Below are positions 3,508-10,780 of a DNA stretch of 64,000 nucleotides, in pieces. The translations under genes were made by a program, and so were the position numbers. The stretch comes from Verrucomicrobiota bacterium JB023 (lineage in GTDB: Bacteria; Verrucomicrobiota; Verrucomicrobiia; Verrucomicrobiales; Akkermansiaceae). The notes under the pieces were generated by a model, which saw nothing but the letters and a program-made list of their open reading frames with translations, did no database searches and had not been told where the DNA came from. The first letter of the stretch is position 1, and each line of letters starts with the position of its first letter. The stretch is from the NCBI GenBank assembly GCA_030673895.1, contig JAUTCR010000059.1, forward strand, positions 62,001 through 126,000. Direction: 5' to 3'.

Positions 3508-5076
3508 ATGAAGCCACTTCTTCTCCTCCTCGCCTCCGCGTCCCTGCTCATGGCAGACAAGAAGCCCAACATCGTCTTCTTCCTCGTTGACGATCTGGGC
3601 ATCCAGGACCTCACCATCGAGGGCTCGACCTTTTACGAGACCCCACGCATCAGCCAACTTGCCAAAGAGTCGATGCGCTTCACCAACGGGTACTCCACCT
3701 GCCAGGTCTGCTCCCCTTCCCGCGCCTCGATCATGACCGGCCAATACCCGCCCCGCGTCGGGATCACTGACTACATCGGTGCTCCCACCGGTCTCGACTG
3801 GAAGCGGAATGACCCCGTCATGCCTGCTGAATATGTGCGCAACCTGCCGCAGGAGCTGACCACCTTGCCCGAGGCACTCAAAGCTGGAGGCTACGCCACC
3901 TGGTTCTTCGGCAAGTGGCACCTGAACGCGCTCACAGATAAGGAGAACTTCCCCGAGCACCACGGATTCGACGTCAACGTCGCCGGCCACCACCGCGGCC
4001 AACCGCCTGCGGGCTTCTTCGCCCCCTTCGAGAATCCCCGCATCCCCGAGGAGCCGGAGCCGGGCACCAATCTCACCCTCTGGCTCGCCGAGCAAACCAG
4101 CGAAACAATCAAAAAGCACCAAGAGTCGAACGCCGAGCAACCCTTCCTCGCCTACCTCTCCTTCTATACCGTCCACAGCCCCATCCAGTCGACGAAAGAA
4201 CTTTGGTCCAAGTACCGCGACAAGGCGGCTAAGAATCCACATGAGGGCGACCGCTTCATCATCGACCGCACCTCTCCCGTCCGCCAAGTGCAGGACCACC
4301 CCGTCTATGCCGGCATGATGGAGATTCTCGACGACGCCGTGGGCAACGTTCTGGACACCATCTCCGAGCTGGGCTTGGAGAACGATACCATCGTCATCTT
4401 CACCGGTGACAATGGCGGCGTGTCCGCTGGTGATGGCAAGGCGACCGCCTGCCTTCCCTTCCGTGGAGGCAAGGGCCGTCAATGGGAGGGTGGCATCCGC
4501 GCCCCCCTTTACTTCAAGGTCCCCGGCGTGACCAAGCCTGGGTCCACTACCGATGTCCCTGCTACCGGGACCGACTTCTTCCCGACCTTGCTCGATCTCG
4601 CAGGGCTTCCTCTCCTCCCGGAAAGCCACGTCGACGGGGTTTCCCTCAAGCCCCTTCTCTCCGGCGAGGGCTCCATCCCCGAGCGCGCCCTCTTCTGGCA
4701 TTACCCACACTTTGGCAATCAGGGCGGTGAGCCTTCTTCCATCATCCGTGAGGGTGACTGGAAGCTGATCCAATACTTGGAAGATGGCCGGCTCGAGCTC
4801 TACAATCTGGCCGAGGATATCGGCGAGCAAAACAACCTCGCCGAGGAGCACCCGGATAAGGTCAAGGATCTCGTCGCCAAGTTGCTTCAGTTCCAGATCG
4901 ACACCAAGGCCAAGTTCCCACCGAAGGATCCCCGCTTCGATCCCGAGCGGAAGAAGGAATACCTTCACCGCATGCACACCGTGCACAAGGCTCGCCTCGA
5001 GAAGCAGGCCGCAGCCTTTCTGGAGCCTGACTACCAGCCCAATGAAGACTGGTGGGGTTCCCTTCCCAAGGACTGA
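3508..5076 (+). CDS. Secreted type I sulfatase (arylsulfatase A-like)
   Basis: Formylglycine-dependent sulfatase, 522 residues from the ATG at 3508, which begins a signal peptide (MKPLLLLLASASLLMA, cleavage near residue 16). The modification motif is CSPSR with the formylglycine cysteine at C68. Metal-binding DD (D28, D29) lies in FFLVDDLG, and FFGKWHL and FTGDNGG are the later conserved motifs. A C-terminal subdomain with WKLIQYLEDGRLELYNL is typical of S1 sulfatases. It would remove sulfate esters from a polysaccharide or glycan outside the cytoplasm; the exact S1 subfamily and substrate cannot be read by eye. It follows the GH1 gene by 132 bp on the same strand, so the two may serve degradation of one sulfated glycan. 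The longer frame back to 3442 is rejected because it would bury the signal peptide. Confidence 0.94.
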   Translation: MKPLLLLLASASLLMADKKPNIVFFLVDDLGIQDLTIEGSTFYETPRISQLAKESMRFTNGYSTCQVCSPSRASIMTGQYPPRVGITDYIGAPTGLDWKRNDPVMPAEYVRNLPQELTTLPEALKAGGYATWFFGKWHLNALTDKENFPEHHGFDVNVAGHHRGQPPAGFFAPFENPRIPEEPEPGTNLTLWLAEQTSETIKKHQESNAEQPFLAYLSFYTVHSPIQSTKELWSKYRDKAAKNPHEGDRFIIDRTSPVRQVQDHPVYAGMMEILDDAVGNVLDTISELGLENDTIVIFTGDNGGVSAGDGKATACLPFRGGKGRQWEGGIRAPLYFKVPGVTKPGSTTDVPATGTDFFPTLLDLAGLPLLPESHVDGVSLKPLLSGEGSIPERALFWHYPHFGNQGGEPSSIIREGDWKLIQYLEDGRLELYNLAEDIGEQNNLAEEHPDKVKDLVAKLLQFQIDTKAKFPPKDPRFDPERKKEYLHRMHTVHKARLEKQAAAFLEPDYQPNEDWWGSLPKD

Positions 5077-6664: not shown

Positions 6665-7411
6665 TCATCTTTTTCTCGTCGCGAAGGTCACCGTCATCAC
6701 CCCGGCTAAAAGACCGAGAGAGAGGATCACGTAGAACGAATTCCGCACGAAGGGCGGCAGATTGACGTTCATCCCGAACAAGCCGGATAAGGCAACCACC
6801 GGGAGAAAGAAGCCAGCGAGAAGATTGAGGCGAAAGAGAATCTTGTTGAGTCTCTCGGAATGCTCGCTCTGTTCCTCCGCGCTCTCGGCCTGCCAGAAGC
6901 TCAGTGTGTCCCTCGCATCGGAGAGCAAGAGCTCCGCCGCCCGCTCCAACTCGCGCGCCCGGTCCAAGAGATTCCTCACCGTCCGATCCTCATCGTCATG
7001 ATTCAGCGTCTGCTGCAGGGCAGCCACCATGTTGCGTAGGGAGCGAGCCAAGGGGCTGGCATGGCGAACAATGCCGAAGACCTCTTCGGCGGTATCCGCC
7101 TCATCGATGGTCTCCTCGTGGGCGTCGATGGTGCGCGCATAGCGCCGTAGCAAGTCCGAGAGAGCCTTGAGCCCGCTGCTTCCCTCCGCGCCGAGCCATT
7201 GACCCTCACCGGTCTTCCAGAAGAACAAGGCGTCGCGCTCCGGCTCCTTAGCCTTCGGAACCTCATGCACCACGAGCAGCAACTCGTTCTCCCCTTCAAT
7301 GCACCGCTGATGCCCCGGGCGAACACCCAGCTGGTCCACCAGTTCTTCCTCGATCCCGAAATTCTCCGGGAGATAGCTGAACTCGTTTTTCCGACGCGCG
7401 CTAGGCTTCAT
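6665..7411 (-). CDS. Short CorA-family divalent-cation channel
   Basis: A 248-residue CorA/ZntB-type protein with the usual tail: a long charged helix (residues about 130-190, rich in Glu/Arg heptads), a first transmembrane helix (about 197-214) ending in the selectivity motif GMN within LFGMNVNLP, and a second helix (about 223-242) followed by a basic ATRKR end. Full-length CorA proteins have about 315 residues, so the N-terminal cytosolic domain is shortened here. The family moves Mg, Co, Ni or Zn across the inner membrane as a pentamer; the ion is not predictable. It is the last gene of a minus-strand run (secreted unknown, SET protein, thioredoxin-fold protein, CorA), 16 bp after its upstream neighbour. 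Confidence 0.88.
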   Translation of the reverse strand: MKPSARRKNEFSYLPENFGIEEELVDQLGVRPGHQRCIEGENELLLVVHEVPKAKEPERDALFFWKTGEGQWLGAEGSSGLKALSDLLRRYARTIDAHEETIDEADTAEEVFGIVRHASPLARSLRNMVAALQQTLNHDDEDRTVRNLLDRARELERAAELLLSDARDTLSFWQAESAEEQSEHSERLNKILFRLNLLAGFFLPVVALSGLFGMNVNLPPFVRNSFYVILSLGLLAGVMTVTFATRKR

Positions 7412-7427: not shown

Positions 7428-8498
7428 CTACTCTTTCAGCAACGCTTCCGCGGTCAGGTCCATGAAGGCACCGGGAACGCCACGGTAGGCCACCCGGCCA
7501 TTTTGGTCGAGAACCCAAGCCATCGGGTAACGATTCACCTGATAGATCTTGGCTAGCTCACTCTTGGGATCGACAAAATTCTCCCAAGTCACCGTCCCTT
7601 CTTTCACATAAGAGCGTAGAGCAGTCGTGCTTTCGCAGGCCACTCCCAGAACGACGATTCCCTTGGGAACCAGACGTTCTTGGATACCGCGCAGGTATTC
7701 CACCGTCTCTTCGGCGGCCTGCATCCGGGCATGCCAGAAGACGAGGGCCACGGGCTTACCCCGGTAATCACTGAGGCGCAGGGCATCACCAGAGACATTC
7801 CAGCCCAGCAAATCGGGGGCCTGCATGCCCTTCTCCAAGGTGGTGATCTGCTTAATGAGAGCCTGCGCGCGCTCCGCCACCGGCATGCCGGCAGCATCAG
7901 CTTGAGCGGAATTAATGATGGCTTTCTCAATCAACTTCAAACGCCGCGCGTTGAGTTCGGCGTTGCCACCCGCTTCACCCAGCAACATGGCGAGAGCCAA
8001 AGCGGCCTGCCCTTGGACCTTCTTGCTCGCATGAGTTGCTTCCAGCCGCTCGATCAGTTCCCGCGTCTTCGGACCATTATCAACCATGACAAGCGAGACC
8101 GCCAAATCGCCAATCTTCTCACTCGTGAAATGAAATCGCTCCGCTGAATCGCGAATCACTCCCAACGGCGTCTTGTCAGGACGATAGGGAGACGGCTCCT
8201 TGACGTAGCGAGGAGCGAGCTGAATCAACTTGGGTGAGTAATCCAAGGTCCATTCCTTCGACCAAAAGTCGTCCATCTCGCGCAGCATCCGCTCGCCAAA
8301 GACCCTCGTATCCGGAGCCTGCTCCCACAATGCGCGACGATCTTCCACCGTCTCCGCAGCATTGATTCGCCGGGTCCAGTCATCCCGCTCCTGCTCAAAG
8401 GCAGCGACGATCGACGCCGCATTCTCAGGGGAAGCTCCCACCGAGCCGAGCCCCAGGAGCGCCGCGCTCACCCATCTCACAATCTTTTTCATCATCAT
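7428..8498 (-). CDS. Secreted TlpA/AhpC-type thioredoxin-fold protein without the CxxC cysteines
   Basis: A 356-residue exported protein. It starts at the first of three consecutive ATG codons at 8498 (the TTG at 8504 is less likely) and opens with a signal peptide (KKIVRWVSAALLGLGSVGAS). The N-terminal 230 residues are helical and unassigned. The C-terminal 130 residues are a thioredoxin fold of the TlpA/AhpC-TSA type: PDLLGWNVSGDALRLSDYRG, GKPVALVFW, IVVLGVACES and a cis-Pro segment NRYPMAWVLDQNGRVAYRG. Where TlpA has FWATWCGPC this protein has FWHARMQAA (near residue 252), so both redox cysteines are lost. It probably acts as a binding or chaperone-like domain rather than an oxidoreductase. 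It lies 33 bp after the SET gene. Confidence 0.85.
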   Translation of the reverse strand: MMMKKIVRWVSAALLGLGSVGASPENAASIVAAFEQERDDWTRRINAAETVEDRRALWEQAPDTRVFGERMLREMDDFWSKEWTLDYSPKLIQLAPRYVKEPSPYRPDKTPLGVIRDSAERFHFTSEKIGDLAVSLVMVDNGPKTRELIERLEATHASKKVQGQAALALAMLLGEAGGNAELNARRLKLIEKAIINSAQADAAGMPVAERAQALIKQITTLEKGMQAPDLLGWNVSGDALRLSDYRGKPVALVFWHARMQAAEETVEYLRGIQERLVPKGIVVLGVACESTTALRSYVKEGTVTWENFVDPKSELAKIYQVNRYPMAWVLDQNGRVAYRGVPGAFMDLTAEALLKE

Positions 8499-8531
8499 TT
8501 CCAACGTTTTCTGCTCCGGCCTTTGTCTCTT

Positions 8532-9128
8532 TCAAGACTTCGCCGCCTTCTTCTTTTTCTTCTTCGTGAGCTTCTCCAGCTCATCCCACTGCTCTTGGCT
8601 CACGATATAGCCCACGCAATTGTCGGAGCCACAGCGACAAGGATGGTCCTCGTAGCACTCGAGGTCGAACCCGTAATCAAAACTTAACTCTTCGCCCTTC
8701 TTCAAGTCACGCTTGGCGTAGATGAAGATGCGATCCTCCTCCGTATAAGCTTCGCAATTGGGGTCACAAGAATGGTTGATGAGGCGCGCGATGTTCCACT
8801 CGACGCTCCCATCGAGATCCCATTCCTCATTGAGAGTGAAGATGTAAACTGCGGCATCGCCCGTCTCCTTCGCCCTGTCGATTTGGGCCCAAGCCCGTCG
8901 CTCGCTCTCTTCCTTGTCGATCTTCTCTCCAACGTACTCGACGATGCGAGTCTCCTCCGGGATGTCCATGGCAGCATAGACTCCCCGTCCGTGGATTTCA
9001 GAATCGCGCACCTCCACCCACTTGCTTTGGCCCCGCTTTTTGAGCTTCTCAAGCTGTCGCTGGGCAGCTGCTGCGTTCTTGAGCGCCTTGCGCTTTTTCT
9101 TGGCCGATCGGCCGTCCTTTTTTGCCAT
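8532..9128 (-). CDS. SET-domain protein lysine methyltransferase with post-SET zinc site
   Basis: A 198-residue SET protein. Residues 1-35 are very basic (KK, RK and Ala-rich). The SET core runs from about residue 38: RDSEIHGRGVYA (SAM-binding N-part), RLINHSCDPN at 115-124 (the NHS/C pseudoknot), and KKGEELSFDYGF at 143-154. A post-SET cysteine cluster follows (C164, C166 and C171 in HPCRCGSDNC), which with C121 could hold one zinc. The end is a Lys-rich tail (KKKKKKAAKS). The family transfers methyl groups from SAM to lysine side chains; bacterial targets are mostly unknown. It lies 11 bp after a secreted protein gene and before the thioredoxin-fold gene, so it is operonic, but the neighbours do not reveal a target. 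Confidence 0.92.
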   Translation of the reverse strand: MAKKDGRSAKKKRKALKNAAAAQRQLEKLKKRGQSKWVEVRDSEIHGRGVYAAMDIPEETRIVEYVGEKIDKEESERRAWAQIDRAKETGDAAVYIFTLNEEWDLDGSVEWNIARLINHSCDPNCEAYTEEDRIFIYAKRDLKKGEELSFDYGFDLECYEDHPCRCGSDNCVGYIVSQEQWDELEKLTKKKKKKAAKS

Positions 9129-9139
9129 CTTCCGTCAGG

Positions 9140-9745
9140 TTACTTCACGACACGACCTCCGACCTCTGGCCAACCCAACACATCCTTATCGGCGGGGAGG
9201 GTCGGGAATAGCTGGCGGAGCTCCTGCACGCGCAAACCAGAACCATTAATAAAGGTCCACTCCGAGCCTTCTTTGCGACTGCGTACCGCAACTTGAAAGT
9301 CCCTGGACTCGACCACGACCACTTTTCCGTTCTGGGGGATGACTCCGCGAAGGGTTTTGACCGTCGGCACAAAGACGAGCCATTCATCGTGCGAAGGCAC
9401 ATGATAGCCGGAGACGGCGGGCTCCGCGCGAAAATCGATCAAATCGACCCCCTGCTCGGCCAGCTCGTTGAAAAGCTTGAGGACTGCGGCTTCCACCGCT
9501 GCCTCACCGCCGAAGCGCTTGGCCGCTTGCTTGCGGAAGCGGGGATACATCTTCTCGACGGCGAACTTCATGTTCCCCTTCAAAATCTCATTCCCGAGGG
9601 TCTGCACCTCGCGGGTCGCCTCGGCGAGGATCTCCGGCGGAACGACATCTCTCTCAAATGAGTTATCCGAATCGAGCACGACCTGCCCGGAAGCCAGACC
9701 GGCGGAAAACATGGAGAGAAAAAGGACCTTGAAGAGGACTCGCAT
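9140..9745 (-). CDS. Secreted protein of unknown function
   Basis: A 201-residue protein from the ATG at 9745 with a clear signal peptide (MRVLFKVLFLSMFSAGLASG). The mature part begins with an acidic stretch, continues with an amphipathic helical region (about residues 40-100) and ends with beta-strand-like sequence (EWLVFVPTVKTLRGVIPQNG, ESRDFQVAVRSRK, WTFINGSGL). The pattern of a helix pair followed by a strand-rich tail resembles small nuclear-transport-factor-like domains, but no family motif is certain. First gene of the minus-strand run into the SET gene. Confidence 0.75.
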   Translation of the reverse strand: MRVLFKVLFLSMFSAGLASGQVVLDSDNSFERDVVPPEILAEATREVQTLGNEILKGNMKFAVEKMYPRFRKQAAKRFGGEAAVEAAVLKLFNELAEQGVDLIDFRAEPAVSGYHVPSHDEWLVFVPTVKTLRGVIPQNGKVVVVESRDFQVAVRSRKEGSEWTFINGSGLRVQELRQLFPTLPADKDVLGWPEVGGRVVK

Positions 9746-9874: not shown

Positions 9875-10780
9875 ATGGCGAAACAAGCGTTAGGCAAGGG
9901 TTTGGGCGCTCTCATCAAGAAGGGAAACGACAACGCACCGACTCAGCCCGCCCATTCTCTTGCAGTGGTCGATGGAGACGCCACCGCCTCGGTGCGGGAG
10001 GTCTCGATCGATAAAGTCGTGCCCTCGCCTCTGCAGCCCCGCATGCATTTCGTCGAAGGTGAGCTCGATGAGCTCATGGAGTCGATCCGCCACCACGGGG
10101 TGATCCAGCCTCTCATTGTCCGACCTGTCGACGGCAAGCTGGAACTGATTGCAGGTGAACGACGTTGGCGAGCCTCGAAGAAGGTCGGTCTGGACAAAGT
10201 GCCGGTCATCGAGCGGGAGGCGACCGACCGCGAGGTCTTGGAGATGGCTCTCATCGAGAACCTTCAACGAGCCGATCTCAATCCCATGGAGGAAGCCTCC
10301 GGCTACGTCCGCCTCGCTCGCGAGTTCGGGCTCAAGCAGGAGGAAATCGCCAAAACTGTCGGCAAATCACGCGCTTCCGTGGCCAACTCGATGCGCCTGC
10401 TCGACCTGCACAAGGACGTCCAGCCCCTCGTGGCCCAAGGAACAATCTCCGTCGGACATGCCAAAGCCATCCTCTCTCTCAAGGACGGCAAGGCACAAAA
10501 AGTGGCGGCGCAAGAAGTCATCCGTCGCAAGCTCACCGTCCGGGCGACCGAGAAGTTGATTCAAGACTTCCACCGCGAGACCAATGGCGCCCAGCGCAAG
10601 AAGGCGAAAGCCAACGAACCGGATCCAGAGAAGGAAGCTCTTTACCGTCAGATTCAATCAAAGCTGCGCCAGAAGTTTCAGACGCAGATCAATCTCAAGA
10701 AAGGTCGCATCGAAATCGAATACTACGGAGACGACGACCTCAACCGGGTGCTCGAAATTATCGGCGTCAATCTCGATTAA
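9875..10780 (+). CDS. parB: Chromosome-partitioning protein ParB
   Basis: A 301-residue ParB CTPase/DNA clamp that binds parS sites near the replication origin and spreads along DNA for chromosome segregation. It has the N-terminal ParA-contact stretch (KQALGKGLGALI), the ParB/Spo0J N domain with PSPLQPRMHF and the CTP-binding GERRWRA motif, ALIENLQRADLNPMEEA, a helix-turn-helix (TVGKSRASVANSMRLLDL) and a basic linker before the C-terminal dimer segment. No parA is adjacent; the next gene is unrelated, and no consensus parS was noticed here. The ATG at 9875 follows a GGAATGG-like context. Confidence 0.95.
   Translation: MAKQALGKGLGALIKKGNDNAPTQPAHSLAVVDGDATASVREVSIDKVVPSPLQPRMHFVEGELDELMESIRHHGVIQPLIVRPVDGKLELIAGERRWRASKKVGLDKVPVIEREATDREVLEMALIENLQRADLNPMEEASGYVRLAREFGLKQEEIAKTVGKSRASVANSMRLLDLHKDVQPLVAQGTISVGHAKAILSLKDGKAQKVAAQEVIRRKLTVRATEKLIQDFHRETNGAQRKKAKANEPDPEKEALYRQIQSKLRQKFQTQINLKKGRIEIEYYGDDDLNRVLEIIGVNLD

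Follow-up and report, generated by a model that had tools for sequence, protein, structure and literature searches.

The window, a 64,000-nucleotide stretch of a contig from Verrucomicrobiota bacterium JB023, contains a minus-strand open reading frame at positions 8532..9128 that begins with an ATG codon and encodes a SET-domain protein-lysine methyltransferase of 198 amino acids, recognised from the list of reading frames, from Pfam and PDB matches and from a structural model. The gene belongs to a same-strand run (9140-9745, 8532-9128, 7428-8504 and 6665-7411) with gaps of 11, 27 and 16 bp between successive members. Its upstream partner, sec201 (9140..9745, minus strand), encodes a protein of about 201 amino acids with what by eye is a signal-peptide-like start; it has no Pfam match and, as far as Pfam goes, represents an undescribed conserved family. 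Downstream lie genes for a thioredoxin-fold (AhpC-TSA/Redoxin, TlpA-like) protein (7428..8504, minus strand) and for a CorA-like protein that ends the run (6665..7411, minus strand), while parB (9875..10780, plus strand) is divergent; these three were identified with Pfam. Terminator-like sites were not above expectation, with three found against a mean of 3.7 in shuffled sequence.

The Pfam SET profile (PF00856) was matched over its full length (positions 1-105 of 105, E 7e-26, 91.1 bits against a cut-off of 22.4) by residues 47-153 (8670..8990, minus strand), and this match, together with conservation in relatives, rules out a chance reading frame. The aligned domain has an HGxG motif at its edge (H46-G47-R48-G49) and includes Y65, N118-H119, F150 and Y152, residues whose roles are presumably those of their counterparts in known SET structures; position 150 we take to be, in name, place and meaning, the Phe/Tyr switch of SET enzymes. 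Pfam returned no post-SET match for the window protein. In PDB sequence alignments its C164-x-C166-x4-C171 cluster (8616..8639, minus strand) lines up with the post-SET of KMT2D and Set1, and the alignments and the model suggest that these cysteines would bind zinc, with C121 as the presumed fourth ligand. The window protein matched 136 distinct PDB sequences at E values up to 0.001; the best 60 of these 136 are histone-lysine methyltransferases, with KMT2D on top (E 3e-26), and a profile built from 58 orthologues matched KMT2A at E 8e-35.

An AlphaFold2 model computed from the 58 aligned sequences, an alignment from which the partial L082, L090 and L091 as well as L046 were left out, reached a mean pLDDT of 91.7 and a pTM of 0.82. 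Foldseek placed MLL4, NSD2 and MLL1 at the top of its matches, whereas VIA-align gave yeast Set1 as the best (Z 17.6, 1.5 Å over 131 residues, 40% identity), with which SETD8 and MLL3 count as tied because they lie within one Z unit of it. The model aligns to MLL and Set1 chains as far as residue 176. In all 58 aligned orthologues S43, H46, G47, G49, Y65, G67, N118, H119, C121, Y152, C164, C166 and C171 are invariant, so that both the GxG, NHxC and catalytic Tyr motifs (H46, G47, G49, N118, H119, C121, Y152) and the post-SET CxCx4C with the cysteine of NHSC (C164, C166, C171, C121) are kept in 58 of 58. Position 150 is F in 48 orthologues and Y in 10. The complete SET plus post-SET arrangement described in an initial annotation of this DNA is thus borne out, with intact motif residues, by the PDB alignments, the superposition of the model and this conservation, and the expected residues of the SAM pocket, on which that annotation had made its case depend, are in place in every aligned orthologue. 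In three of four pairs, those with computable dS, the core showed a dN of 0.13-0.19 against a dS of 1.6-2.4. We conclude that 8532-9128 is a genuine gene under constraint, and that its predicted product is a lysine methyltransferase of the SET/post-SET type shared across the family.

The core is flanked by basic extensions at both ends, as had been described initially and as the counts of K/R against D/E confirm (15 vs 2 in residues 1-36, 8 vs 4 in residues 178-198, and 16 vs 34 in the core). The N-terminal tail (9021..9128, minus strand) carries 11 lysines among 36 residues and a modelled helix at residues 6-32, and the C-terminal tail (8535..8597, minus strand) carries 8 among 21 and a modelled helix at residues 178-197. 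Across the 58 orthologues the net charge of the N-tail has a median of +6 and is positive in 55, that of the C-tail has a median of +2 and is positive in 67%, and that of the core has a median of -12. In four pairs the dN of the N-tail was 0.41-0.55 against 0.11-0.19 for the core, or about three to four times faster, with most dS values saturated or not computable; because its charge is kept while its dN is high, the N-tail seems to conserve composition more than sequence. The lysine-rich tails of the window protein would suit an enzyme whose main role is to methylate those very tails and so to switch its own binding to nucleic acid or to a partner, and a precedent exists in the chlamydial protein NUE, which according to the available part of the report (PMC2904774) automethylates lysines outside its own SET domain. 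This explanation is nevertheless improbable, given the fast divergence of the tails and the fact that members of the Opitutales, in a comparison that likewise leaves out L082, L090 and L091, almost lack the N-tail, which for the same reason is not needed for core function.

The initial annotation had also placed the gene within an operon of envelope proteins, and this holds for the window locus but is not conserved elsewhere. Counted over 61 named loci, the genes near SET include homologues of sec201 (41 loci), of parB (31) and of the thioredoxin-fold gene (17) and an M28 peptidase gene (26); no locus gave a CorA homologue. Gene maps of 20 of the 61 loci gave the type of gene immediately upstream: a DsbD_N-like cluster in nine (two members checked with Pfam), panB, for ketopantoate hydroxymethyltransferase of a cytoplasmic vitamin pathway, directly preceding SET in L085, L087, L089 and L092 (two checked), and a pseudouridine synthase gene in L088. 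Of 125 genomes from the family, 122 gave a match to sec201, while two genomes of genus g5 have SET and no sec201 match; conversely, genus g3, which has no SET match, has sec201-like proteins in 25 of 25 genomes searched, although at scores of 36-108 bits, when matches elsewhere reached as many as 268. A role in modifying or controlling the envelope and thiol products of the neighbouring genes (sec201, TlpA-like, CorA) would accord with the 41 loci that have sec201 nearby and with the nine others in which the DsbD_N-like upstream product is also presumably periplasmic. We regard this as quite unlikely, since the PanB of four Opitutales-type loci and the pseudouridine synthase are both cytoplasmic and since sec201 and SET each occur apart from the other in g3 and g5; a conserved role in an envelope operon was rejected on account of the changing upstream genes and of the sec201-like genes of SET-less g3. 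Because upstream partners vary and sec201 survives without SET in g3, the envelope setting is specific to one lineage, and the variation among neighbours suggests a self-contained enzyme. In two g3 genomes (L187 and L188), nothing beside the sec201-like gene matched SET at an E value below 0.4. As a separate observation, in these two genomes a divergent sec201-like gene (L187 4497-5105; L188 near 3974-4474) is followed 16-54 bases downstream by an open reading frame of about 660 amino acids.

The source genome (4.03 Mb in 77 contigs) contains one SET match, and the family was present in 36 of 38 relatives; within the order, 219 of the 279 genomes carry it, as do 40 of the 41 genera. In the class 83 of 189 genomes and in the phylum 96 of 387 gave matches, part of them weak matches to other SET proteins, and the family is therefore not universal beyond the order. 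Every title returned by a scan of genome contigs for the SET locus was from Verrucomicrobiota, including a 3,444-base contig titled Akkermansia muciniphila (L064, from a metagenome bin). The sole genus of the order without any SET match is g3, whose genomes are of 2.2-3.5 Mb and in several cases single-contig; at least 20 of the 60 order genomes without SET belong to it, and at least one genome outside it (G517, genus g10) is likewise not among the SET-matched genomes of the order. The absence from g3 indicates that some lineages can do without the gene. To describe SET plus post-SET as normally eukaryotic draws no useful contrast, since the arrangement is near-universal in genera of the order and is found as well on plasmids of Burkholderiales and Xanthomonas. 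The alternative that the initial annotation had set against its own reading, an ordinary, widespread bacterial clade with a known target, is borne out in its first half only.

This distribution bears directly on whether the protein is an exported effector that methylates the histones of a eukaryotic host, in the manner of chlamydial NUE or Legionella RomA/LegAS4. In its favour, the nearest solved structures are those of histone methyltransferases, and the sole NCBIfam match was to the model of the Dot/Icm effector AnkI/LegAS4 (NF043024), at 31.9 bits against a cut-off of 550. Against it, the family is missing from a single genus and not restricted to a handful of them; its carriers include Haloferula, Luteolibacter, Rubritalea and Roseibacillus, presumably environmental genera (named relatives with SET are Roseibacillus persicicus, R. 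ishigakijimensis, Haloferula luteola, Rubritalea marina and Luteolibacter pohnpeiensis), and no secretion-system gene was recognised among the scanned neighbours. The sub-threshold score and the near-universal presence lead us to reject the effector explanation as highly improbable.

The phylogeny proposed in the initial annotation was run against eukaryotic and other bacterial SET proteins, using 64 rows and 163 columns. L176, L183 and L184 were excluded from it, as were roughly half the core loci and the majority of the viral rows. All seven eukaryotic rows fell on one side of a branch with support of 83/89, recovered in 86% of 200 bootstrap trees. A second group (98/90), on a separate starred branch, joins four proteobacterial plasmid SET proteins to six distant verrucomicrobial proteins, and in a third (99/90) the window family is joined by further verrucomicrobial rows and by phage rows. 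The window protein did not group inside the eukaryotic rows, as a member of KMT2/Set1 would, in a comparison limited by the short alignment and long branches. Recent capture from a eukaryote is disfavoured by the 83/89 branch, whose support is moderate and not decisive; the alignment is short and two long eukaryotic branches meet, leaving the deep order unsettled.

A scan of viral contigs yielded 37 SET loci, of which 18 (L124-L141) encode proteins 38-46% identical to the window protein. These contigs come from apparently marine sources, and we infer that the phages are T4-like. In L127 and L133 the SET/post-SET genes (1935-2444 and 2016-2504, respectively) have neighbours that match the PHROGs families DNA ligase, 2OG-Fe(II) oxygenase and DnaB-like helicase, so that these contigs look like phage. 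In the tree, ten of the 18 nest with verrucomicrobial rows on two separate long branches. Among 50,697 phage records the window protein had no match, and the L127 and L133 proteins matched at only three weak places, in uncultured phages. A second type of SET protein on viral contigs (L142-L160) is 21-38% identical to the window protein; most of its members lack the middle part and align to the profile as two separate segments.

We propose that the product of 8532-9128 is a protein-lysine N-methyltransferase of the SET/post-SET class, that it works in the cytoplasm with SAM as methyl donor and that it serves the physiology of the bacterium itself, a prediction that we consider probable, and the best reading of the data is that of a housekeeping enzyme predicted to act on an endogenous basic protein. 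SAM would be held in a pocket formed by HGxG, Y65 and N118-H119, with Y152 as the putative catalytic tyrosine, while a zinc cluster of C121, C164, C166 and C171 would close the lysine channel. The Phe at the switch (F150) would permit di- or trimethylation. The acidic core would accept a basic substrate, most likely a protein bound to nucleic acid in the nucleoid or the ribosome, and the fast-evolving basic tails may help the enzyme to reach it, with automethylation of the tails as a possible accompaniment. A search of the source genome for Hc1 found nothing, with one control recovered, and the two HU proteins of this genome lack Lys-rich tails; a substrate of the sort best known for bacterial SET enzymes is thus not evident there. 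A SWIB search of the source genome gave zero matches, but its controls were silent as well. More tentatively, nearly all genera of the order may methylate lysines of their own nucleoid or translation proteins, as a bacterial counterpart to histone methylation, with a dedicated enzyme that was inherited, lost in small-genome g3 and taken up by marine phages for use on host proteins. Bacterial SET enzymes have been studied mostly as effectors that rewrite host chromatin, and an enzyme of SET/post-SET type that nearly every genus of an order carries offers a clean case in which to ask how such enzymes serve their own bacterium, the more so as cultured relatives exist.

Bacterial SET plus post-SET proteins are already annotated and reviewed, and the window protein is not exotic among them. 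The available part of a 2014 review (PMC3980110) counts SET genes in more than 500 bacterial genomes, Opitutus terrae included, and argues for a bacterial origin. Among the papers listed on SET in Verrucomicrobia, PVC and phages and on methyllysine in Verrucomicrobia, none dealt with the window protein or with a phage SET enzyme. Outer-membrane lysine methylases have been described, in a report whose main text, as available, does not use the term 'SET domain' (PMC11784438). Proteins annotated as 'SET domain-containing protein-lysine N-methyltransferase' on plasmids of Burkholderiales and Xanthomonas (20 among the matches listed) are 35-41% identical over 70-79% of the window query, and their annotated genes are shorter, at 147-155 codons. 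KMT2/MLL and yeast Set1, which are eukaryotic H3K4 methyltransferases, have the same SET plus post-SET fold as the window model, which differs from KMT2A and KMT2D in having Phe rather than Tyr at the switch position. The chlamydial proteins NUE and cpnSET, from a phylum of the same superphylum, are likened here by description only: in the portions available, methylation of Hc1 is reported for cpnSET (PMC3980110, PMC2904774) and was not seen for NUE (PMC2904774), and SWIB is said often to co-occur with SET, a chlamydial chromatin-modifying complex being suggested (PMC6426960). NUE is an injected effector, unlike the endogenous role proposed for the window protein. For that role a likeness, again by description only and from the available part of the review (PMC3980110), is the archaeal Go1-SET of Methanosarcina mazei, a prokaryotic SET protein with an endogenous DNA-binding substrate, MC1-alpha.
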